From: Rhodospirillaceae bacterium
GTDB lineage: Bacteria; Pseudomonadota; Alphaproteobacteria; GCA-2731375
Length of the DNA stretch: 64,000 bases
NCBI GenBank assembly: GCA_018660265.1
Contig: JABJKS010000121.1
Location: 1-64,000 of the forward strand
Direction of reading: 5' to 3'
Each line of letters starts with the position of its first letter. Position 1 is the first letter of the stretch. Positions 35,262 to 47,791 of the stretch are shown piece after piece. The position numbers and the translations under genes were made by a program. Under the pieces are notes generated by a model. That model was given only the letters and a program-made list of their open reading frames with translations, was not told the origin of the DNA and made no database searches.

Positions 35262-36044
35262 CTATTTCACGACAGCACTTAAACCTTCAGCCCGGGTCCG
35301 GCCCGCGGCCATAAGGAAGGATAGATCACTGCCGCCCAAAACCATGCGTACACCCATGGAGATATATTTCTGCGCCAGATCATCATAGACCCCGCCCATG
35401 CCGGCCCATTTGCCGTTGTTGTGACAGGCAGCGATTGTGGTGTCATAGGCGGCAACCACATCGTCATGGCCATATTGGCCGGCAATACCCATTTCAGCGC
35501 ACAAATCATTGGTGCCGATCAACAGCACATCCACGCCCTCAACAGCGGCGATCTCGTCCGCATTGACGATAGCTTCGGGACTTTCCAGCATCACCACGAC
35601 CAACAGATTGTCGTTGATGACCCGGGCCGCCTCGGCCATGGGCAGGTTGTCGTATTCCAGAACCGCCATGCCGCCTGCCATGGAACGATGGCCCAAGGGC
35701 GGGTAAAGGCATTGGGCCACCACGCGGCGGGCTTCTTCCGCCGTATTCACATGCGGCACGACAATGCCCTGGGCACCCGCATCCAAGGGGCGGGAGGCAT
35801 GGTGATGCAAGTGGGATGATGAACGCACGATGGGCGTACAGCCCGCATCCAGTCCGGCCAGGGTCATATCAGCCACGGTTTCGATAGATAGCGGGCTATG
35901 TTCCATATCGATGAACAGCCAGTCATAGCCGCAAACCTTGGCAACTTTGGCAATCTCCGTGCCACGGGCCAGACGCACACCCATGCCAAGGGAGAGTTCA
36001 CCCGCTGCCAGTTTTTGTTTGGTTATATTTGGAACGACAGCCAT
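35262..36044 (-). CDS. HpcH/HpaI-family aldolase
   Basis: 260 residues. The family motifs are MGVRLARGTEIAKVAK, the catalytic neighbourhood YDWLFIDMEHSPLS, VVPHVNTAEEARRVV, VVVMLESPEAI (the metal-binding Glu) and VDVLLIGTNDLCAEMG. Such metal-dependent class II aldolases cleave 2-keto-3-deoxy acids or 4-hydroxy-2-oxo acids to pyruvate and an aldehyde. In this cluster it would fit the last step after the enolase-superfamily dehydratase. It is 15 bases downstream of the second epimerase. Exact substrate unknown. Confidence 0.9.
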   Translation of the reverse strand: MAVVPNITKQKLAAGELSLGMGVRLARGTEIAKVAKVCGYDWLFIDMEHSPLSIETVADMTLAGLDAGCTPIVRSSSHLHHHASRPLDAGAQGIVVPHVNTAEEARRVVAQCLYPPLGHRSMAGGMAVLEYDNLPMAEAARVINDNLLVVVMLESPEAIVNADEIAAVEGVDVLLIGTNDLCAEMGIAGQYGHDDVVAAYDTTIAACHNNGKWAGMGGVYDDLAQKYISMGVRMVLGGSDLSFLMAAGRTRAEGLSAVVK

Positions 36045-36059
36045 AGACCCGCCTCCTAC

Positions 36060-36881
36060 CTAGACTTTTTCCTGAAATCGTTCCCGGCAAACGCGGATAA
36101 CTTCCGCACCGGGACGCTTCCACCAATTATGGGCGGAAAATATCTCAACTTCAATCAACCCGTTATAACCGGTGTTTTCCACCCAGCCGCTAATCTGCTG
36201 AATATCGATGACGCCATCGCCCATCATGCCTCGGTCCAACAACAAATCCGTAGTCGGTACCAACCAATCACAGACGTGATAGGCCACCACCCTGCTGCCA
36301 GCCCGGTCGATTTGCGCTTGCAAATCAGGATCCCACCACAGATGGTAGACATCAACGGCCACGCCAACGCCCGCTCCCAATTCGTCGCACAGGTCCAGGG
36401 CCTGGGACAAAGTGTTGATGGCACATCGATCGGCGGCATACATGGGGTGCAGGGGTTCAATGGCCAGGGGCACTTTGTTGGCGCGGGCATGGGGCAACAT
36501 GGCCCCAATACCATCACGAATCATCTCCCTGGCAGCGGCCAGATCTTTCGATCCTTCCGGCAGGCCGCCTGCCACCAGAACCAGGCAATCGGCACCAAGG
36601 GCTGCTGCCTCGTCGATGGCGGCACGATTGTCATCCAGGCTGGTTTGCCTACCCGCAGCGTCGATAGCGGGGAATGATCCACCCCGGCAAAGGCCCGAAA
36701 CCCGCAGGTTGCTGTCGCCCAGCATGCGAACAGCCTCGGGCAGACCACATTCCGCCAGTTTATCCCGCCAGATGGAAATCCCCGCCACATCCGCCTCGGA
36801 ATAAGCCGTAATCGCCTGGGCCAGGCTGTATTGTTCCCGTGTCGTCGCTTGATTAATGGACAGACGCGCCAGATCAGCCAT
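36060..36881 (-). CDS. Sugar phosphate isomerase/epimerase-type TIM barrel (first copy)
   Basis: 273 residues from the ATG at 36881. The xylose-isomerase-like barrel shows the motifs LAIEPLHPMYAADR (metal Glu), VAVDVYHLWWDPDL, YHVCDWL and IEVEIFSAHNWW. Enzymes of this superfamily isomerise or epimerise sugars, inosose and 2-keto acids with a divalent metal. It overlaps the enolase gene end by eight bases, which argues for translational coupling. Not closely matched to any named enzyme that I can recall. Confidence 0.85.
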   Translation of the reverse strand: MADLARLSINQATTREQYSLAQAITAYSEADVAGISIWRDKLAECGLPEAVRMLGDSNLRVSGLCRGGSFPAIDAAGRQTSLDDNRAAIDEAAALGADCLVLVAGGLPEGSKDLAAAREMIRDGIGAMLPHARANKVPLAIEPLHPMYAADRCAINTLSQALDLCDELGAGVGVAVDVYHLWWDPDLQAQIDRAGSRVVAYHVCDWLVPTTDLLLDRGMMGDGVIDIQQISGWVENTGYNGLIEVEIFSAHNWWKRPGAEVIRVCRERFQEKV

Positions 36882-38253
36882 TCGCCATCTCACGCATCAC
36901 GGAAAAGTCCGGCACCGCGCCATAGGCAAAGCCAACCGCATCGAGAGAGCCGATCGCGATCTGACCATCTGATATTTGCAGACGGGCAACACCGTCGGCT
37001 GAATGATACATATCCGGATGCGCCGAACAGAACGCCGCCTGCTCCGCTCCCGGCACGCCGTTCATACCATTGACATAATGGTGGCCGTTACGCTCCACAT
37101 GCGTAATCCCCAACAGATTGACCAGAGCCAGATCCTGTTGCACGCCAAGGCCCGCCTGGGTGGTCAAATCCTCCCCCGTCATAAAATAACCCTCGCCCCA
37201 ATGATTGCATCGGGCCGCATTCAGGATGGATTTATAAAGTCCCTTACAGGTCTTTGACGAGACCCCGCGATAGCCCAATTCCCGCCCTCTTGGGAAAGCG
37301 CCCAGGAAGCCATCGGATTCATCCAATATCACCGGCTTGCGCGCACTCAAGGCCGCAACGTCCACATCCAGCGCCACGGCGCGGGAGATCGGCTGTTCGA
37401 TGAACAGGATCGAATTGTTAAAGCGGTTAAGCGCGGCATCACCTTCGATCCGGTCCAACAGTTCCATAACGCCTGCCACATCATTGTATTGTTCGTTGCC
37501 GTCCAACGAGATGACATATTCGTTCGGGCTATCATCCAGGACCGAGGCGATATCCTGCAACCGCTGGACGTCTTCTTCCAAATCGCCGCAGACTTTGATT
37601 TTGAAATAACGGTGGCCGTAGGTGGCAATGACCTCCTGCAAGGTCTCAGGCAGGCCATCGCCCACGGGTTCCGGGTTCTCACGGATCGGATCGACCATGC
37701 CGACTGTGTGCCGGGCATGGATATGCGTGCTGGGGCGTAACGCTGACAAAAACGGATTAATATCAAACTCTTCCCCGACGATGCCCGGCAGATTGGCCTG
37801 CACCGCCTTATAAAACGACACCCCCTGCAATCGGCAGAGTGCATCAAGTATGGCGCGGTCAAGAACGGCGGGACCGTAACACGCCACCAGGGAACCATCG
37901 CCACGCGCATCACATATGCGGACTTGTTCATCATAATTGCCGCGAAACAGCCCGAACGCCGTCGTGGGATCTGACCCTTTATACAGCGTGGCGGCGGTGG
38001 TGAGGGCATGGCGCAACTGATCGAAATTGTCTTCGTTCGACAGCTCTAAATTCTTATCGAACCACTTTGGTGCCAGCATCTCCGCCGAATGGCCCCAGCC
38101 TTCCCGCCCATCGGCCAGCCGGATACGGACCTTGGCGAAGACCTGGGGGCTTTCCCGCAACGTGACAACGCCAAAGCGGAATGGCATACGCAACGTCACA
38201 TCGCGTTCATACAATTGCACATCGCAGACCGTTAGTTGGGTGGGCTCAGACAA
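36874..38253 (-). CDS. Enolase-superfamily enzyme (mandelate racemase/dehydratase-like)
   Basis: 459 residues, somewhat long for the family. The barrel has the general-acid/base and metal motifs: YFKIKVCGDL (the Lys-x-Lys catalytic pair), ISLDGNEQ, LFIEQP and ILDESDG. A C-terminal TGEDLTTQAGLGVQQDLAL segment matches the last metal/active-site region. Members abstract the alpha-proton of a carboxylate and either epimerise or dehydrate an acid sugar. In this cluster a sugar-acid dehydratase is plausible. It overlaps both neighbours by a few bases. Confidence 0.87.
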   Translation of the reverse strand: MSEPTQLTVCDVQLYERDVTLRMPFRFGVVTLRESPQVFAKVRIRLADGREGWGHSAEMLAPKWFDKNLELSNEDNFDQLRHALTTAATLYKGSDPTTAFGLFRGNYDEQVRICDARGDGSLVACYGPAVLDRAILDALCRLQGVSFYKAVQANLPGIVGEEFDINPFLSALRPSTHIHARHTVGMVDPIRENPEPVGDGLPETLQEVIATYGHRYFKIKVCGDLEEDVQRLQDIASVLDDSPNEYVISLDGNEQYNDVAGVMELLDRIEGDAALNRFNNSILFIEQPISRAVALDVDVAALSARKPVILDESDGFLGAFPRGRELGYRGVSSKTCKGLYKSILNAARCNHWGEGYFMTGEDLTTQAGLGVQQDLALVNLLGITHVERNGHHYVNGMNGVPGAEQAAFCSAHPDMYHSADGVARLQISDGQIAIGSLDAVGFAYGAVPDFSVMREMANG

Positions 38254-39076
38254 TTAAGGCCTCCTCAATACCGCGCAGGTACCCGATGGCACGGGCAGCA
38301 CAGGCGGCACCGTCTGGGTGATAGTCGAATGGTTCCACGGCAATGGTGCCCGTGTATTCATGCCGTCGCAAGGCCGCGAAAAGAGGCGTTAGCTGTAATG
38401 CCCCCTGCCCCGGCCCCCGGCCATTACCGTCATTGACCTGAATATGGGCGATATGGCCACTGGGCAGCCATTGATCGATCAACCCACCCAGGCCGTCCTC
38501 TGCCAATTTATGGGTGGCACAGCAATCCAGCATGGTGCGCATGGCAGGGTTATCGATGGCATCGACCATGGCCGCCGCCTCCCCCACCCGATTGATGAAG
38601 TCGGCATCTGCCGGGGCCAATGGCTCTATACAATAGACGACACCAGCTGCCTGGGCATCCTCGGCAACGGCGGCGAAACAGTCCAAGGCCCGGGCCTTGG
38701 CGCCTTCTTCATCGCCCGGTGTTAATCCGCGCTGCACCGGCGAGCCATGGACCAGGGCCTTGCCCCCTAATTCAGCACAAAGGTCTATCAGACGTCGCAT
38801 GACATCCACAGTCCGGGCCCTGAGCGCATTGTCGGGGTCGGTGATCGACAAACCTTCAGGCGCGACAAGCAACCAATGCAGCGAGGTAATCTCGATCCCG
38901 GCATCCCGTGCCGCCTTTCGCGTCGCGGCGGCATCAATAGCGCCCGGCACATGCGGCGTATCCGACAACGTGAACGGGGCGACTTCCAAGCCGTCATAAC
39001 CCAGGGCAGCAGCAAAATCGCATTGGGCCGCAAACGTCATCTCACGAATGACCTCGTTACAAAGTGAAATCTTCAC
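38246..39076 (-). CDS. Sugar phosphate isomerase/epimerase-type TIM barrel (second copy)
   Basis: 276 residues. The motifs LGYDGLEVAPFTLSD, ALVHGSPVQRG, YCIEPLAPADADF (metal Glu), MLDCCATHKL, IAHIQVNDGNGRGPGQG and TIAVEPFDYHPDG are those of the xylose-isomerase-like and D-psicose/tagatose 3-epimerase barrels. It resembles a ketose 3-epimerase or hydroxypyruvate isomerase more than the first copy does. It overlaps the start of the enolase-superfamily gene and the end of a Gfo/Idh gene. Confidence 0.87.
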   Translation of the reverse strand: MKISLCNEVIREMTFAAQCDFAAALGYDGLEVAPFTLSDTPHVPGAIDAAATRKAARDAGIEITSLHWLLVAPEGLSITDPDNALRARTVDVMRRLIDLCAELGGKALVHGSPVQRGLTPGDEEGAKARALDCFAAVAEDAQAAGVVYCIEPLAPADADFINRVGEAAAMVDAIDNPAMRTMLDCCATHKLAEDGLGGLIDQWLPSGHIAHIQVNDGNGRGPGQGALQLTPLFAALRRHEYTGTIAVEPFDYHPDGAACAARAIGYLRGIEEALIV

Positions 39077-40098
39077 AAGGTTATCCTTCGCTCTTTATCG
39101 GCAGACCGATAGATGGCGTCCAATATACGGGCCATGCCGACACCACATTCCTCCATCCCCGCCAGGGGCGGCGCTTTGCCATCGACCGCATCCAGGAAGG
39201 CGGTAAATTCGCCGGCCACCACCTGATGCGGTTCAACAATTGCCCTATAAGGCATCTCCACACCGCGATTGTTAGGCCGCCATAGGCCATCGTTAAGTTC
39301 ATGACGCACACGATGGAGACGCAGCTCGGATGTCTGATAGTCAATTTCCGCCGCACCCTCGCTACCCGCAACCACGAATTCTTTGGTCTGTGTGGAACCG
39401 GGCACAATGTTGTCGTTCCAGCGCCCGGGTTGAATACAACCAACCTCTATATTTGCAATGGCACCGGATGGGTAAAACAGTCGGATCAGGGCCAGGTCAT
39501 CATAACCGCGATCGAAATGATCGCGGCTGACAGCATCCACCGCAACAGGCAGCGCAGCCATCATCCAATTGGCCTGATCGATGAAGTGAACCGCATCATT
39601 GCCGATAACACCGCTGTCCCCACGGGCCCGTTTGAAGCCATGAAATCGGGCCGAGATATAACGCAGATCGCCCAATCCACCCGCAGTCACTTCGTCGCGG
39701 ACCAGCCTGGCCAGGGGATGGGCCCGAAAATAGAAGCCAACCTGGACCACCTGATCGCCACAAAGATCCCTTAACCCCTCTGCCTCCGCCAATGTGGCGG
39801 TCATGGGTTTTTCAATAAACATCGGCTTGCCGGTGGCGAGGAGCGGTTTGCAAACTGCAAAATGCTGATCCGTGGGGGCGAGAACAACAATTAAGTCCGC
39901 CAGATCCAAAAATGCCTCAGCCTCTGCGGCAACCCTGTCACCGGGCAAGCCGAGATCAAGGCAGCGTTGTCGGGACGCCGCCCCTGGATCGACCACATAC
40001 AACCCATCCGCCAGCCCCAGTTCCCGCCAGGCAGCCAGATGTGTCGGGCCGAAATTCCCGAAACCGATTTGCAGGATGTTACGAGTAGGTATGGTCAT
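39073..40098 (-). CDS. Gfo/Idh/MocA-family NAD(P) dehydrogenase (first copy)
   Basis: 341 residues. The N-terminal Rossmann motif LQIGFGNFGPTHLAAW precedes the family hallmark FIEKPMTATLAEAEGL, in which the Lys is the expected active-site base. GDSGVIGNDAVHFIDQANWM contains the catalytic His/Asp pair. It oxidises a hydroxyl of a sugar or polyol, or reduces the corresponding ketone. It overlaps the second epimerase start by four bases (ATGA), and a DUF993 gene lies 11 bases upstream. Confidence 0.9.
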   Translation of the reverse strand: MTIPTRNILQIGFGNFGPTHLAAWRELGLADGLYVVDPGAASRQRCLDLGLPGDRVAAEAEAFLDLADLIVVLAPTDQHFAVCKPLLATGKPMFIEKPMTATLAEAEGLRDLCGDQVVQVGFYFRAHPLARLVRDEVTAGGLGDLRYISARFHGFKRARGDSGVIGNDAVHFIDQANWMMAALPVAVDAVSRDHFDRGYDDLALIRLFYPSGAIANIEVGCIQPGRWNDNIVPGSTQTKEFVVAGSEGAAEIDYQTSELRLHRVRHELNDGLWRPNNRGVEMPYRAIVEPHQVVAGEFTAFLDAVDGKAPPLAGMEECGVGMARILDAIYRSADKERRITL

Positions 40099-40109
40099 GG
40101 CTGATCCGA

Positions 40110-41276
40110 TCAGCTTTCCACCCCGTGCATGGCCAGGACTGTGGCCATGCGGGATGCGGCCATGTCCGGGTCACGCAAAAGACCAGCCGCATCCGCCAGG
40201 CGGAATAGCTCGGCCAGATGAGAGAGGGAGCGGGCGCTTTGCTGTCCGCCGACCATGACAAAATGATCCTGATGGCCGTTCAGCCAGGCCATGAAAACGA
40301 CCCCTGTCTTATAGAACCGGGTCGGGGCCTTAAAAATATGTCTTGATAGGGGCACGGTCGGGGCCAGGATATCGTGGAACTTGGCCGTGTCACCGGCGGC
40401 AAAGGCATCCAGGGCGGCGGATGCAGCAGGCGCGATGGCATCAAAAATGCCCAGCAGGGCATCGCTGTAGCCAATTTCGTCACCGGCGATTAATTCGGCA
40501 TAGTTGAAGTCATCACCGGTATACATGCGCACGCCATCAGGCAAACGCCGACGCATGGCAATTTCCTTGTCTTTGTCCAGCAGGGAAATCTTGATACCGT
40601 CGATCTTCGCCGCGTTGCCAGCCAACATATCCAGGCAGACATCCATGGCCGCCATATGATCGCCATGGCCCCAATAACCGGCCAGGGCAGGGTCGAACAT
40701 TTCACCGAGCCAATGGATCAGCACCGGCTCCCGCACCTGGCCTAAAATACGGCCATATACTTTGGCATAATCATCGGGAGATTTGGCGCAGGCGGCCAGG
40801 GCGCGGCTGGCCATGAGGATAATGCGCCCGCCCTGTCCTTCGACGAATTCAACCTGTTCCTCATAGGCGCGGATGACATCATCAAGGCTTAGATCGGGCG
40901 ACGGTTCCAGATGATCCGTGCCCGCACCACAGGCGATGCGCGCACCGGGAATATCCTTGGCGGCAGACAGACTGCGGCGGATCAATTCCTGAGATGCGGC
41001 CCAATCCAGGCCCATGCCGCGCTGTGCCGTATCCATGGCCTCGGCAACGCCTAGCCCTAGGTCATACAGGCCCAAACGGTATTGAATGGTCGCATCCCAA
41101 TCGATGGCCGCATCAACCCATGGGTCAGCCTCCGCCCGGGGGTCGGCCACAACATGTGCCGCGGAATAGGCGATGCGGTTGAAGGGCCGGTTGGCGCGGG
41201 TGGGAAAATCCCGTGGTGTCGATGTGGTGAACGGGACCAGGCCACCGTTGTTATTGGGCAGATTAAGGGTTGGCAT
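40110..41276 (-). CDS. DUF993-family (dihydrodipicolinate synthase-like) protein
   Basis: 388 residues. The barrel signatures IACGAGTDHLEP and GRIILMASRALA, with the Lys in DGIKISLLDKDKE, resemble the class I aldolases of the DapA superfamily but in the diverged DUF993 family. Members are usually found near Gfo/Idh and epimerase genes, with no proven reaction. It lies between the two Gfo/Idh genes, with gaps of 11 and 2 bases. The Lys in KISLLDKD is the candidate Schiff-base residue. Confidence 0.85.
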   Translation of the reverse strand: MPTLNLPNNNGGLVPFTTSTPRDFPTRANRPFNRIAYSAAHVVADPRAEADPWVDAAIDWDATIQYRLGLYDLGLGVAEAMDTAQRGMGLDWAASQELIRRSLSAAKDIPGARIACGAGTDHLEPSPDLSLDDVIRAYEEQVEFVEGQGGRIILMASRALAACAKSPDDYAKVYGRILGQVREPVLIHWLGEMFDPALAGYWGHGDHMAAMDVCLDMLAGNAAKIDGIKISLLDKDKEIAMRRRLPDGVRMYTGDDFNYAELIAGDEIGYSDALLGIFDAIAPAASAALDAFAAGDTAKFHDILAPTVPLSRHIFKAPTRFYKTGVVFMAWLNGHQDHFVMVGGQQSARSLSHLAELFRLADAAGLLRDPDMAASRMATVLAMHGVES

Positions 41277-41278
41277 AC

Positions 41279-42436
41279 CTAGACCTCCAAATCAGGGATA
41301 TCCATCCAGCGACGCTCGGCCCAGCTTTGCAAGCCCAGTTCCGCCAATTGTACGCCCTTGGCACCTTCCAGCAGATCCCATTTGAAATCGTTCTCACCAT
41401 AAAGATGACGGATAAACAATTCCCATTCCGCCTTGAAGGCATTGTCGTAATGCACCGTGTCAGGCACTTCCTCCCAGCCATCCTGATAGTCAATGGCCGG
41501 GGGGATGTCCGGGTTCCAGACAGGCATGGGGGTATTAACCCGGGCCTGGGTGCGACAGCGGCGCAGGCCCGCCACGGCGGAACCATGGGTGCCATCCACA
41601 TGCAGGGTCAACAGATCATCCCGGCGCACACGGGTACACCACGAGGAATTGAACTGGGCGACAATTCCCCCCTCAAGCTCGAACGTGGCATAGGCCGCAT
41701 CATCCGTGTCCGCCTGATAGGCCGTGTCAGCCTCGTCCCAGCGGGTGGGGATATGAGTTGCGCCCAGGCAGGAGACGGATTTGACCGCGCCAAAAGTATT
41801 GTCCAGCACATAGCGCCAATGACAGAGCATATCCAGAATGATGCCGCCGCCTTCATTCTTTTTGTAGTTCCAGGACGGTCGTTGGGCGGGTTGCAAATCG
41901 CCTTCGAACACCCAATAGCCAAACTCACCGCGAACCGAGAGGATGCGGCCAAAGAAACCGGCGTCGATCAAATATTGCAGTTTGCGGATACCCGGCAGAA
42001 ACAACTTGTCCTGCACGACGCCGTGTTTGACGCCTGCCGCCTTCGCCTCCCTGTAGACCCGATAGGCATCATCGGCGCTGTCGGCGGTGGGCTTTTCGCA
42101 ATAGATATCCTTGCCTGCTGCAATTGCCTTGGACAACAGCCCCGCCCGCGCCTGCGTCGTGGCAGCATCAAAAAACAAAGTATCGTCAGGATTGGCGATG
42201 GCAGCGTCCAGATCGTTGGTCCAGCGGCTGATGCCGTGTTCCCGCGCCAAAGCGCCAATACGGCCCGCATCACGGCCCACCAGGATGGGATCCGGCATGA
42301 CCCGGGTACCGTCTGCCAATTCCAGACCACCGGCTTCCATAATCGGCAGGATGGAACGGATCAGATGCTGGTTCTTGCCCATGCGCCCGGTGACGCCATT
42401 CATGATGATGCCCAAACGTTTCTCGCTCATAGTCAT
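41279..42436 (-). CDS. Gfo/Idh/MocA-family NAD(P) dehydrogenase (second copy)
   Basis: 385 residues. The N-terminus LGIIMNGVTGRMGKNQH is an unusual Rossmann opening closer to dihydrodipicolinate reductases. Later GKDIYCEKPTADSADDAYRV gives the Lys base and NEGGGIILDMLCHWRYVLD the catalytic Asp and His. Longer than the first copy. It overlaps the ABC ATPase gene by four bases (ATGA). Presumably a second oxidation or reduction step of the same pathway. Confidence 0.9.
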   Translation of the reverse strand: MTMSEKRLGIIMNGVTGRMGKNQHLIRSILPIMEAGGLELADGTRVMPDPILVGRDAGRIGALAREHGISRWTNDLDAAIANPDDTLFFDAATTQARAGLLSKAIAAGKDIYCEKPTADSADDAYRVYREAKAAGVKHGVVQDKLFLPGIRKLQYLIDAGFFGRILSVRGEFGYWVFEGDLQPAQRPSWNYKKNEGGGIILDMLCHWRYVLDNTFGAVKSVSCLGATHIPTRWDEADTAYQADTDDAAYATFELEGGIVAQFNSSWCTRVRRDDLLTLHVDGTHGSAVAGLRRCRTQARVNTPMPVWNPDIPPAIDYQDGWEEVPDTVHYDNAFKAEWELFIRHLYGENDFKWDLLEGAKGVQLAELGLQSWAERRWMDIPDLEV

Positions 42437-43203
42437 TCCATTCCCAATAATTTGTAGATCCGGCGGGTGTAGTCGCCAAAGACTTCCGTCGTTTTGATAT
42501 CCAAACTGCGCGGATGGGGCAGATCAACCAGGAAATTATCTGCCATGCGGGCGGGCCCCGCCGTCAACACCACGACCCGGCTGCCCAGAAACACCGCTTC
42601 CTGGATACCATGGGTGACAAAGACGATTGTCTTGCCGCTCTCCCCCCAGATGCGCAGTAGCTCCAGGTTCATTTTTTCCCGGGTTAATGCATCCAGGGCC
42701 CCGAAGGGTTCGTCCATCAAGATCAATTTCGGGTCATGCACCAGGGCGCGCGCGATGGCGGCGCGTTGTTGCATACCACCCGATAATTCATAGGGATAAC
42801 TATTGGCGAAACCGGACAGGCCCACCATCTCCAGCAAATGGCCCGCGCGCTCCCGCGCCTCTCCCATGTTAAGGCCCAGAATTTCAGCCGGCAGCAATAC
42901 ATTGTCGATGACCCGACGCCATTTCAACAACAAGGGTTGTTGGAAGACCATGCCAATATCTTTGGCGGCATCAAAACTGTCCGCCGCGCTGCCGATACGT
43001 ACCGTGCCCTCTTCATGGGAATGCAGGCCCGCCAGGATTTTCAACACCGTGGTCTTGCCGCAACCCGATGGCCCGACCATGGCAACCAGCTCACCGGCCT
43101 GCACGTCAAATGTGACGTCGGAGACGGCGAGGAAATCCTCCCGCTTGCTACGGTAGACCTTGCGGACGCTGTCCAGCTGGATGAAGGCTTCTGAAGTGCT
43201 CAT
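42433..43203 (-). CDS. ABC transporter ATP-binding protein (SsuB/TauB/ThiZ-like)
   Basis: 256 residues. Walker A GPSGCGKTT, Q-loop FQQPLLLKWRRV, signature LSGGMQQR, Walker B LILMDEPFGALD and VTHGIQEAVFL are present. Ile-Gln-Glu in the switch region and the FQQPxLLxW Q-loop are typical of the nitrate/sulfonate/taurine and thiamine-precursor group. It belongs with the permease at 43204-44010 and the binding protein at 46799-47791. Confidence 0.93.
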   Translation of the reverse strand: MSTSEAFIQLDSVRKVYRSKREDFLAVSDVTFDVQAGELVAMVGPSGCGKTTVLKILAGLHSHEEGTVRIGSAADSFDAAKDIGMVFQQPLLLKWRRVIDNVLLPAEILGLNMGEARERAGHLLEMVGLSGFANSYPYELSGGMQQRAAIARALVHDPKLILMDEPFGALDALTREKMNLELLRIWGESGKTIVFVTHGIQEAVFLGSRVVVLTAGPARMADNFLVDLPHPRSLDIKTTEVFGDYTRRIYKLLGME

Positions 43204-44010
43204 CTATTCCATCCGGGCATCGCGGACCACCAACAGACGCTCCAACAACAACACAATGCCGTAAAGCGCGACGCCGACGGCAGTGATCATCAAAACAGCC
43301 ATGAACATACCGGCAGTATCCAATGTCACCTGCACCTGCATCATCAGATAGCCCAGGCCTTCCTCCGATGCGATGAATTCACCCACGATGGCGCCGGCGA
43401 CGGCCAGCACCACAGCCACTTTCATGCCCGAGAATATGAACGGCAAGGCACCGGGCAACTGGATCTTGGTAAAGATCTGCCAACGGGAGGCCCGCAAGGT
43501 GCGAACCAGATCAATCAGCTCAGGCTCCACATCCGCCAGGCCGCGGGTTGTGGTGATCAGGATGGGCAGAAAACAGATGGAAAAGGCGATCAAAATATTG
43601 GGACCTAGACCGTACGAGAACCAAACGATGAAGATCGGCCCCAGGGCGACCTTCGGGATCATGTTCAACGATACAATCAAGGGCATAAAGGCATCATTCA
43701 GAATGCGTGACCAGGAGAACAAGACCGCCAATGTCACTCCCACAATTACTGCAAGCCAAAAGCCACCAAACACCGAAGCGGCCGTGATCATGGTATTGTG
43801 GCCCCAGCGATAGGTGTCGTACTCCAACAACGTGGCGAAGGTGTCCAGGGGCGCGGGCATGATATAGGGCTCCACCTTCCCCAAGGTGATCCAGGCCTGC
43901 CAGGCCAACAGCGCGACAAGGTGCATGACGATGATCAACACCCATTTGCGGAAGGCTTCTCGCCCGGCTTCGCGCGCAGTCTCACGCCCCGCCTCTCGAT
44001 TGTTATCCAT
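43204..44010 (-). CDS. ABC transporter permease (SsuC-like)
   Basis: 268 residues from the ATG at 44010. Upstream the open frame runs into the inverted-repeat pair at 44049-44181, so a longer form is unlikely to be real. Six or so helices and the EAA loop DLVRTLRASRWQIFTKIQLPGALP are typical of SsuC/TauC/ThiX-type permeases. The N-terminus has a short repeat (EAGRETAREAGREAFR). It abuts the ATP-binding gene with no gap. Confidence 0.92.
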   Translation of the reverse strand: MDNNREAGRETAREAGREAFRKWVLIIVMHLVALLAWQAWITLGKVEPYIMPAPLDTFATLLEYDTYRWGHNTMITAASVFGGFWLAVIVGVTLAVLFSWSRILNDAFMPLIVSLNMIPKVALGPIFIVWFSYGLGPNILIAFSICFLPILITTTRGLADVEPELIDLVRTLRASRWQIFTKIQLPGALPFIFSGMKVAVVLAVAGAIVGEFIASEEGLGYLMMQVQVTLDTAGMFMAVLMITAVGVALYGIVLLLERLLVVRDARME

Positions 44011-44048
44011 GGGCGGACAGGCCACATTCAGCAGCACGACACCGGCCC

Positions 44049-44181
44049 TGGATTGCCGGGTCAAACCCGGCAATGACAGTGTTTAGATTGTTATTGTCAG
44101 CGTAAAAACTCTCATTGTGGGCGTATAATTTGTCATTGTGGGCGTATAGGTTGTCATTGCCGGGCTTGACCCGGCAATCCA
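44049..44181. repeat. Inverted pair of GGATTGCCGGGT palindromes with internal short repeats
   Basis: Two 30-base units, each itself a hairpin (GCCGGGTCAAACCCGGC and GCCGGGCTTGACCCGGC), lie in opposite orientation at 44049-44078 and 44152-44181. Between them is a 12-18 base unit CATTGTGGGCGTATA repeated twice with a third, degenerate, TTATTGTCAGCGTA. This TGGATTGCCGGGT...GGCAATGACA palindrome is a known type of intergenic repeat in alphaproteobacteria. It separates the ABC permease from the DHDPS-like gene. Confidence 0.8.
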
Positions 44182-44199: not shown

Positions 44200-45255
44200 T
44201 CATGCCAGCCACCGCTGTAAATTCTCGGCTACAAAATCATCATCACACAGGTGGGGATAATCGGCGATAACCCGGTCCAGCGCCTCTGTCTGACCGGGGC
44301 TCATCGCCTCGTCTGGGTTCAGACACCAGGTTCCCTGCAACAGGCCCTGGCGACGCAGAACCTCGTGACAGCCGGCGATACATCCAGAGAAATCGTTGAG
44401 CACATCAAATAACGCGCCGTTGGCATCGGTGATCTGGCTGTCCAGTTGCAATAATTCCGCATCGACCGCTCCGGCCGCCACGGCGGCATGGGCCTGTGCC
44501 AAATAATCTACGGCAGGCTTTACCCAGACACTCCAATGGCCCAGCAGGCCGCCGCGGAAGCGAACCACCACATCCTCGCCAGCCCGACGGGCCGTAAAGG
44601 GCGTCAGCAGATCCAACAGAATATGATCATCGTTACCCGTATAAAGACTGACGCGATCTTCTGCCTCCGCCGCGACAACGCCATGCACCACATCCAGAGT
44701 GCGATAGCGATTGAAGGGCGCAACCTTGATGGCGATGACATTGTCGATGGCGGCAAAACGCTGCCAGAACCCGCGCGAGAGCACGATACCGCCCACCGCA
44801 GGCTGCAAATAAAAGCCGATCAGCGGAATGCGTCCGGCAATAGCTTCGCAATGGGCAATCAGCGCATCTTCATCCGCGCCCTTGTGAGCAGCGAGGCTCA
44901 ACAGACCAGCGTGATAGCCAAGGCCCAGGGCGACATCCGCCTCAGCCAATGCCTGATCCGTTGGGCCCGCCAGACCGGCGATCATGATGGGGCGTTGATC
45001 GCACCAATCCGCCGCCGTTTCCGCCGCCATACGCAAGACCGGTTCGTACAGGCCCACATCACGAATTTCGAACTGGGTGGCATGTACGCCGACGGCCAGG
45101 CCGCCCGCACCTGCATCCAGGTAATAGCGGGTCAGGGCACGCTGGTGGCGTTCATCCAGCTGCCTCTGGGGGGTCAAGGCCAGGGGATGGGCCGGTATAA
45201 CCACGCCTTTACGAAGCTGGACCAGAATTTCGTCAGGCAGTTCCTCACGATGCAT
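44200..45255 (-). CDS. Dihydrodipicolinate synthase-family aldolase
   Basis: 351 residues. The DapA-type barrel shows VIPAHPLALTPQRQLDERHQRALTRYYLDAGAGGLAVGVHATQFEI, a GAGG turn, IPLIGFYLQP and a candidate Schiff-base Lys in NVIAIKVAPFNRYRTLDV. Family members cleave or make 4-hydroxy-2-oxo acids, N-acetylneuraminate or dihydrodipicolinate; the usual biosynthetic DapA is about 60 residues shorter. It is 12 bases downstream of the PhyH-like gene. Confidence 0.88.
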   Translation of the reverse strand: MHREELPDEILVQLRKGVVIPAHPLALTPQRQLDERHQRALTRYYLDAGAGGLAVGVHATQFEIRDVGLYEPVLRMAAETAADWCDQRPIMIAGLAGPTDQALAEADVALGLGYHAGLLSLAAHKGADEDALIAHCEAIAGRIPLIGFYLQPAVGGIVLSRGFWQRFAAIDNVIAIKVAPFNRYRTLDVVHGVVAAEAEDRVSLYTGNDDHILLDLLTPFTARRAGEDVVVRFRGGLLGHWSVWVKPAVDYLAQAHAAVAAGAVDAELLQLDSQITDANGALFDVLNDFSGCIAGCHEVLRRQGLLQGTWCLNPDEAMSPGQTEALDRVIADYPHLCDDDFVAENLQRWLA

Positions 45256-45267
45256 CGGTATAAATCC

Positions 45268-46011
45268 TCAAAATGCTACGACCAGGGACAAATCATAGGT
45301 CAACGCCGGATGATCCAATTTTGTCTTGCCATTAGCGTAATGAATAGCACAGGCGCGACGCCAGCGGCTTGATCGATTGTCGGAAGATTGATGCAGGGTG
45401 TTGCCGTGGTGAAACGAGACCCCGCCCCGTGGCACCGGGGCCGCTGTCATTTCAAAAGTATCCGCCGTCTCGTCTGGGATCAACAGATTGAAAGGCTGCC
45501 CGTCCGGCGCAACGTGGGGCATGACGTCGCCAAGATTGCTGCCATCGGCATAGAACAGACAGCCATTGGCTTCGTCCGCATCGTCCAGGGCAATCCAGGC
45601 CGTTACCATGCCGTCCCGATCATTGGGGCCGAAATAGTAGTTATCCTGATGCACCGGCTTGGGCCCACCGCCGCCTGGTGATTTGAAAAACAGCTGGCTA
45701 AAGAACGCCTGGACCCCCGGACCGATCAATTGTTCCACCTGGGCCAACAAGCTTTCATTCGCTGCCAGGTCGCGAAACATCGGGCGGTGATAGACCGGGT
45801 TATCCAGTTTGCGCAGGACCGGCCTGCCATCCACCTCGCCCTCCACATACCAGGCGCGGTCAGCGGCATCCATTGCGGCAACTTCGTGATCCGCCCAGGC
45901 ATCGGCATCAGCAATGGCTGCATCCATCTCTGTGGCACTGAAAACACTCGCAACAGTCAAATGGCCGACGCGGCCATAAGCTGCCATTTCATCTGTGTTT
46001 AATGCTTCCAT
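45268..46011 (-). CDS. PhyH-family Fe(II)/2-oxoglutarate dioxygenase
   Basis: 247 residues. The iron triad is visible: KPVHQDNYYFG (His and Asp) and FHHGNTLHQS (distal His), followed by the arginine-bearing SSRWRRACAIHY, which would bind 2-oxoglutarate. The family hydroxylates phytanoyl-CoA, ectoine and many small metabolites; the substrate here is open. It is the first gene of the catabolic set after the TetR gene, and a palindrome sits 17 bases upstream. Confidence 0.9.
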   Translation of the reverse strand: MEALNTDEMAAYGRVGHLTVASVFSATEMDAAIADADAWADHEVAAMDAADRAWYVEGEVDGRPVLRKLDNPVYHRPMFRDLAANESLLAQVEQLIGPGVQAFFSQLFFKSPGGGGPKPVHQDNYYFGPNDRDGMVTAWIALDDADEANGCLFYADGSNLGDVMPHVAPDGQPFNLLIPDETADTFEMTAAPVPRGGVSFHHGNTLHQSSDNRSSRWRRACAIHYANGKTKLDHPALTYDLSLVVAF

Positions 46012-46027: not shown

Positions 46028-46043
46028 GTAACTGGTTGGTTAC
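46028..46043. promoter_or_regulatory. Predicted TetR operator upstream of the PhyH-like gene
   Basis: GTAACTGGTTGGTTAC differs at only two positions from GTAACCAGTTGGTTAC at 46749-46764, in the divergent promoter of the TetR and binding-protein genes. It lies between the tetR stop and the PhyH start. Confidence 0.7.
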
Positions 46044-46065
46044 TTATCGCACCTGACAGCCCTGG

Positions 46066-46737
46066 TCAAGCGGGCCGCAGATAACCCATCACCACATCAA
46101 CCACATGGGCCCGCCGGGCCTCCAATTCCGTATCACTCATCAAATCCCGATCAAAAATCGTCGAAAGGGTGTGAATATTGGAAAAATAAAAGTACCCGAC
46201 AGAGGCATTGGTAATGAAGACCTGGATCGGGTCCGCATCAGCGCGAAAGACGCCACTGGCGACGCCACGGCGCAATAGATCCCGGATCATGCCAATGACA
46301 GGCCCATGTAGGTCAAGTATCGCCTTACTGCGTTTCAGGTGCCGGGCTTGATGCAGGTTCTCGCTGTTCAGCAAATTGATAAAATATGGCGCTTTGATGA
46401 AGTAGTCATAGGTGAAGGTGACAAGGCGGCGCATGCCGTCCTCCGGCGACAGATCATCGAGGTTCAATTCCAACTCCGCATGGCGAATTTCAGCGTAAGA
46501 AAATTCCAGGACGGCAAGAAACAAATCATCCTTGTTGCCGAAATAATGATACAGCATGCGCTTGTTCACATCGGCCCGCCGGGCAATGACATCGACGCGG
46601 GCGCCGCCCAGGCCCTTGTCTGAGAATTCGGCAAGGGCGGCCTGTAGGATGCGTTCCTTCGCCGCGTCGGGATCCCGCTTCGCCCCCCGTCTGGAGGATT
46701 CCCGGGAGGATTCGTTGACAGATGCCATGATGCCCAT
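46066..46737 (-). CDS. TetR-family transcriptional regulator
   Basis: 223 residues. The N-terminal helix-turn-helix is GGARVDVIARRADVNKRMLYHYFGNKDDLF. The C-terminal ligand domain resembles RutR-like regulators. The gene lies between the binding-protein gene (divergent) and the catabolic genes (same strand), and a 16-base palindrome sits at both of their promoters, so it probably represses both until a pathway metabolite binds. The start could be four residues later (MASVNESS). Confidence 0.92.
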   Translation of the reverse strand: MGIMASVNESSRESSRRGAKRDPDAAKERILQAALAEFSDKGLGGARVDVIARRADVNKRMLYHYFGNKDDLFLAVLEFSYAEIRHAELELNLDDLSPEDGMRRLVTFTYDYFIKAPYFINLLNSENLHQARHLKRSKAILDLHGPVIGMIRDLLRRGVASGVFRADADPIQVFITNASVGYFYFSNIHTLSTIFDRDLMSDTELEARRAHVVDVVMGYLRPA

Positions 46738-46748
46738 TTATGTTTCAG

Positions 46749-46764
46749 GTAACCAGTTGGTTAC
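46749..46764. promoter_or_regulatory. Predicted TetR operator in the divergent promoter
   Basis: GTAACCAGTTGGTTAC has perfect 7-base arms around GT and sits 12 bases before the TetR start (46737) and 35 bases before the ABC binding-protein start (46799). A near-identical copy is at 46028-46043. Confidence 0.75.
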
Positions 46765-46798
46765 AACAACTACTCGATAATCCTAGGGAGGATCAAGC

Positions 46799-47791
46799 AT
46801 GCGAATTCTGAAACCGGCCCTCGCCACGCTGTTAAGCGCGGTGATGTTGACGACATCTGCACAGGCAGCGGAAAAGGTCAGCTTTATTTTGAACTGGGTG
46901 GCGGGCGGCGATCACGCCCCGGTCTATTGGGCCAAAGAACAAGGCTGGTACAAAGATGCCGGCATCGACCTGAGCATCGAACAGGGCAAGGGCTCGACCC
47001 TGTCATCTCAACGTGTTGGCATTGGCAAAAACCAACTCGGCATTGCCGACCTGGGCACCGCCCTGGTCAACAAGGGTAAGGGTGCTGATCTGGTTGCGGT
47101 CTTTAACATCTATGCCAATTCGCCCTATGGGTTCTATTGGAAAAAAAGCTCCGGTATCAAAACCATCAAGGATTTCGCCGGCAAAAAAATCGGCAACCCA
47201 CCCTGGGATGCGGCCCGGCAGATGTGGCCGGCCTTTGCCAAAGCTTCCGGCATGATGGCTGATTCCGTGACCTGGGTGAACGTCAAACCAAACGCGAAAA
47301 TCGCGGCTTTGAAATCCGACTCCATTGCCGTCACCACCTCGTTCTACAATATCCACTTCATCTTCCAGAAAGTGTTTGGCGACGACATGGGCTTCGTCGC
47401 CGGTAAAGACCTTGGCGTGAACCCCTATGGTAATTCCGTCATCGCCAATGGTGCCTACCTGAAGGCCCACCCGGAGGTGGTGAAAAACTTCGTCATGGTG
47501 ACGCAAAAGGCCTATGCCGCCTGCGCCAAGAATGCCGACCCCTGCATCACCGCATTGATCGATGCCAACAGTGGCCTGAAACGGCCTTCATCCATGGCCA
47601 ACTGGGCCCTGGTGAAAGAGTTGATGGATGCGGACAGCTCCCGCAACGGGGCCATCGGTTATTTCGATCCCGTCCGCATGGACGCGGATTACAAGTTGAT
47701 CGAGGCCTACTTCAAGCTCAAGACACCGTTCGACATCAAGAAAACCTACACCAACGACTTCCTGGATATGTCCGTGAAGTTCGGCGGCTGA
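46799..47791 (+). CDS. ABC transporter substrate-binding protein (SsuA/NMT1-THI5-like)
   Basis: 330 residues. Signal peptide ends TSAQAAE. The mature N-terminus KVSFILNWVAGGDHAPVYWAKEQGWYKDAGIDL is the hallmark of the NMT1/SsuA/TauA group, which bind thiamine precursors, sulfonates, nitrate or aromatic anions. RBS GGGAGG is 8-9 bases upstream. It is divergent from tetR; its permease and ATPase are about 3 kb away on the reverse strand. The ligand is probably the substrate of the catabolic enzymes. Confidence 0.93.
   Translation: MRILKPALATLLSAVMLTTSAQAAEKVSFILNWVAGGDHAPVYWAKEQGWYKDAGIDLSIEQGKGSTLSSQRVGIGKNQLGIADLGTALVNKGKGADLVAVFNIYANSPYGFYWKKSSGIKTIKDFAGKKIGNPPWDAARQMWPAFAKASGMMADSVTWVNVKPNAKIAALKSDSIAVTTSFYNIHFIFQKVFGDDMGFVAGKDLGVNPYGNSVIANGAYLKAHPEVVKNFVMVTQKAYAACAKNADPCITALIDANSGLKRPSSMANWALVKELMDADSSRNGAIGYFDPVRMDADYKLIEAYFKLKTPFDIKKTYTNDFLDMSVKFGG

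Follow-up and report, generated by a model that had tools for sequence, protein, structure and literature searches.

Near-identical palindromes flanking a TetR-family gene predict joint control of an uptake gene and a catabolic operon in a Rhodospirillaceae bacterium

Background

Does a single TetR-family repressor control both the uptake gene and the catabolic operon that lie on either side of its own gene in a Rhodospirillaceae bacterium? The stretch analyzed (referred to as the window) comprises 64,000 nucleotides of contig JABJKS010000121.1. A preliminary description of this DNA had reported near-identical 16-mers on both sides of tetR, one assigned to the promoter of the catabolic operon and the other to the divergent promoter of the binding-protein gene, and had predicted that one repressor governs both halves of the locus.

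Organization of the locus

The tetR gene (46066..46737, minus strand) is followed by a tightly packed catabolic operon of 11 genes, running from 46011 to 35262 in the same direction. The first gene, phyH, encodes a PhyH-family dioxygenase (45268..46011) and is followed by genes for a DHDPS-like aldolase/lyase (44200..45255), an ABC transporter permease of the SsuC/TauC type (43204..44073), an ABC transporter ATPase of the TauB/SsuB type (42433..43203), a Gfo/Idh/MocA oxidoreductase near PDB 3oqb (41279..42436) and a DUF993 protein near the uncharacterised PDB entry 4dnh (40110..41276). The remaining part (35262..40098), located on a single strand with its genes overlapping slightly or separated by no more than 20 bp, encodes a second Gfo/Idh protein (39073-40098), an AP_endonuc_2 TIM barrel (38246-39076), an enolase-superfamily-like protein (36874-38253), a second sugar-isomerase-like protein (36060-36893) and an HpcH/HpaI aldolase (35262-36044); all 11 genes are on the minus strand. 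Divergently from tetR, an NMT1/SsuA-like ABC transporter substrate-binding protein is encoded at 46799..47791 on the plus strand. The NMT1 protein and the permease and ATPase of the operon presumably constitute one transporter, and since its parts are encoded on opposite transcripts, a shared regulator would be sensible. The DUF993 gene recurs alongside Gfo1 and AP2b homologs near TetR relatives; an open-access search returned no paper on DUF993.

The product of tetR comprises a TetR_N helix-turn-helix (PF00440, E 5e-15, residues 30-76) with the recognition helix NKRMLYHYF and a C-terminal TetR_C_29 ligand/dimer domain (PF17938, E 1e-42, residues 98-216), as established by domain searches, and is a predicted repressor. 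Orthologs do not have the first ATG of tetR and their start matches the second one, so the ATG at 46728 is probably the true start. No second close tetR paralog was found in the Rhodospirillaceae genome, the next match being 29% identical (E 4e-7).

Two predicted operators at the tetR locus

Both 16-mers were found exactly as described. Operator O2, GTAACTGGTTGGTTAC (46028..46043, no strand assigned), is situated in the 54-bp gap between tetR and phyH, ahead of the phyH ATG at 46011 on the minus strand. Operator O1, GTAACCAGTTGGTTAC (46749..46764, likewise without strand), is situated in the gap that separates tetR from the divergently transcribed NMT1 gene. The two sequences differ at two positions, both central, and each forms a nearly perfect inverted repeat in which the GTAAC half-sites are separated by 6 bases. 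Thus, the TetR-family trait of a palindromic operator at the promoter of the regulator's own or a neighbouring gene is present at the sequence level, and by its domain and operator architecture the system is, as predicted from these features, a local TetR-family repressor.

Pattern searches of the 5.5-Mb genome, with the reversed pattern serving as a control, revealed O1 and O2 as the sole exact matches to GTAACYRNNYRGTTAC, so the genome search proposed in the preliminary description returned two sites, both at the tetR locus, and not a motif that occurs widely with no relation to the gene set. The reversed control pattern gave more genome matches than GTAACYRNNYRGTTAC (21 per strand). In the window, GTAACYRGTTGGTTAC with up to 3 mismatches occurred 4 times, both strands counted, versus 0.42 expected. 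The three one-mismatch GTAACYRNNYRGTTAC sites elsewhere in the genome all fell within long open reading frames, which rules out a wider regulon in this genome.

Promoters under the operators

The -35 box TTGACC (46064..46069, minus strand) and the -10 box TAAGTA (46041..46046, minus strand), separated by a 17-bp spacer, were assigned to the promoter of the catabolic operon. The tetR TGA stop codon lies in this -35 box, and O2 shares its first 3 bases with the end of the -10 box and extends over the start region. Both boxes are good, imperfect matches to the consensus. A promoter scan by itself gave no excess over chance, and the assignment rests on the conservation of the boxes in orthologs: TTGACC/G-N17/18-TAAGTA was present in 9/9 close orthologous loci, with an invariant -10 box and a fixed offset to the operator.

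The NMT1 promoter consists of the -35 box TTGACA (46715..46720, plus strand), which sits in the tetR reading frame (Ser-Val-Asn codons) and is invariant in the nine orthologs, and the -10 box TATGTT (46739..46744, plus strand) after an 18-bp spacer. This TTGACA-N18-TATGTT arrangement was conserved in all nine loci (the -10 box being TATTCT in one), and in each of them O1 begins 4 bases past the -10 box. Both placements given in the preliminary description, in the catabolic-operon promoter and in the divergent binding-protein promoter, therefore agree with conserved boxes. The region of O2 itself is not divergent, with tetR and the catabolic operon being co-directional and the operon having its own promoter there.

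The co-directional arrangement of tetR and phyH, only 54 bp apart, would also suit a different role of O2, namely that of mainly a roadblock to read-through from tetR, with the operon transcribed from the tetR promoter instead of its own. The conserved promoter between the two genes, with its fixed operator offset in all the orthologs, argues against this explanation and makes it improbable. It was also considered that TetR might bind both sites yet activate one of the transcripts, as a few proteins of the family are generally known to do. The normal place of an activator is upstream of the -35 box, whereas O2 overlaps one -10 box and O1, starting just past the other, covers the start site; activation is therefore still harder to credit than a roadblock role.

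No clear sigma-70 promoter for tetR itself was conserved across all the aligned close orthologs. A block beside O1 (46765-46780), which reads GAGCTATCGA in most close orthologs and is slightly altered in a few, has diverged to AACAACTACTCGATAATC in the Rhodospirillaceae genome, and could belong to the tetR promoter.

Conservation of the operators in related loci

TetR relatives were gathered from 385 genomes of the class and from the genome collection. Both operators were kept in place in 9/9 close orthologous loci (TetR 75-82% identical). One lay upstream of the aligned tetR start by approximately 30-60 bases, the other approximately 26-30 bases past the tetR end. The alignment of one locus (L100) covers the C-terminal half only; there, the upstream site has the same position with respect to tetR. 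In two loci (L035 and L041) the first gene of the operon encodes DHDPS, not PhyH, and the operator is kept nonetheless.

With no more than 1 mismatch allowed, the motif occurred within 300 bp of tetR in 43 of 106 unique TetR loci, whereas the reversed pattern occurred in none and shuffled sequences gave a mean of 0. In more distant relatives the site either adjoined tetR or preceded pathway genes located as far as several kilobases from it. In Burkholderiales (L052-L055, L058) it occupied the gap between the divergent DHDPS and NMT1 genes, about 2.7 kb from tetR, and elsewhere it preceded homologs of enolase, permease, phyH, Gfo1 or AP2. Of the 76 loci with an NKRM helix, 9 had no recognisable site in the DNA covered by the search. 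In Comamonadaceae (L059-L075, L113) the motif, ending in GTTAT, lies approximately 1.5-2 kb upstream of tetR between a TctC-type receptor gene and a gene for an FMN oxidoreductase, which suggests that a different transporter is under the same type of regulator; the gene content thus differs between loci.

The exact motif was present in 23/56 class genomes with a close TetR match versus 11/329 without one (Fisher p 6e-14, a value that ignores the relatedness between the genomes). The latter 11 genomes could indicate that the motif is owned by another regulator, with the adjoining TetR being a bystander. Such an explanation is very unlikely, slightly more so than activation, since the presence of the motif tracks TetR across the genomes and its outer bases track the TetR recognition helix, even between paralogs of one genome. 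A functionless chance repeat has a negligible probability: the position of the sites is conserved in all nine orthologs and the motif is absent from shuffled sequences, and together with the reversed-pattern control these results rule out a chance origin.

Proposed regulation of both transcripts

The position of O1 and O2 on the promoters fits a model in which one local TetR shuts off both transcripts by occluding their promoters. In the proposed mechanism, a TetR dimer would bind each of the two palindromes. The dimer on O2 would mask the -10 box and the start region of the operon promoter, and the dimer on O1 would mask the NMT1 start region together with the stretch just upstream of tetR. 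Occupancy of either site would obstruct RNA polymerase, and both transcripts would be off when the pathway substrate or intermediate is missing. Binding of such an effector to the C-terminal domain would release TetR and switch both transcripts on together. The control of both halves by one repressor, as put forward in the preliminary description, is thus well backed by comparative evidence: the conserved sites and promoters, the co-occurrence with TetR and the correlation with the recognition helix. Very probably, one TetR represses NMT1 and the 11-gene operon through both palindromes and is released by an effector. Autorepression of tetR is likely, O1 being located just upstream of the gene, and is less certain due to the lack of a clear conserved tetR promoter.

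Relation to known TetR-family systems

RutR is a regulator of pyrimidine utilisation with the operator consensus TTGACCANNTGGTCAA, which has the ACCA-NN-TGGT core and the length in common with GTAACCANNTGGTTAC. It was also the top NCBIfam match to the DNA-binding part of the TetR protein studied here, with 50.4 bits versus the equivalog cut-off of 368 bits. In E. coli this TetR-family protein binds a palindrome of approximately 16 bp and represses rutA-G and rutR (PMC10891134). The present TetR differs from RutR in its C-terminal domain, in the outer operator bases and in the gene set. Its neighbours encode PhyH, DHDPS-like, Gfo/Idh and DUF993 proteins and an ABC transporter, with no rut genes among them, and this lack of association with rut pyrimidine genes, together with the score below the cut-off, rules out RutR identity.

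In TetR/TetA of Tn10 and similar divergent repressors, palindromic operators lie on the overlapping promoters of regulator and target. The locus described here resembles that system in having palindromic operators at promoters beside the regulator gene. Unlike in Tn10, the operators are 705 bp apart and flank tetR, one per target transcript, and in place of an efflux pump the predicted targets comprise a binding protein for uptake and a catabolic operon. The tetR locus is a new example of an ordinary type of control.

In the open-access literature, where a single paper names PF17938, no published operator was found for the TetR_C_29 (PF17938) branch, to which the C-terminal domain belongs by its match, and searches for earlier accounts of the motif and of the DUF993 genes found none; a subscription paper could contain such an account. 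The analysis firmly predicts the regulon, including its operators and promoters, of a widespread, uncharacterised proteobacterial uptake-and-catabolism gene set, and the motif offers a means to locate scattered pathway genes in other genomes.

Recognition helix and operator specificity

Most TetR relatives have a recognition helix of the NKRM (rarely NKRL) or the NKQL/NKQM type. The proteins were divided into R and Q classes by residue 60, so that the perfect separation at this residue is by construction. The exact GTAAC-N6-GTTAC site was present within 300 bases for 33/78 R60 proteins and 0/22 Q60 proteins. The exact TCAAC-N6-GTTGA site was present for none of the 78 R60 proteins and for 11 of the 22 Q60 proteins, or 16 when one mismatch was allowed. 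The two operator forms have a common central core and differ only at the two outermost positions of each half-site (GT or TC). Three genomes (G203, G295 and G373) encode both types of TetR, each adjoining its own operator form.

Since the Q-type proteins belong mainly to one clade, the correlation, though strong, reflects few independent origins. With one main Q clade and no TCAAC form at the Acidobacteria Q-type loci, the pattern falls short of demonstrating a specificity switch as a repeated independent event. On balance, the evidence leans slightly towards the view that the first residues of the recognition helix, R60/M61 or Q60/L61, set the outer two base pairs of an otherwise common 16-bp operator. 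If true, duplicated repressors of related transport and catabolism gene sets would stay insulated from one another within one genome. The R60/Q60 correlation offers a natural series for studying the change of TetR DNA specificity after duplication.

The Acidobacteria Q-type loci (L103, L104, L110) have the palindrome AACCAAC(T)(G/A)GTTGGTT upstream of tetR. At further Q-type loci (L021, L022, L027, L074, L080, L119-L123, L125, L129, L132) TCAAC-N6-GTTGA operators, some with one mismatch, flank tetR on one side or on both, in a layout parallel to the two-operator arrangement of the Rhodospirillaceae locus.
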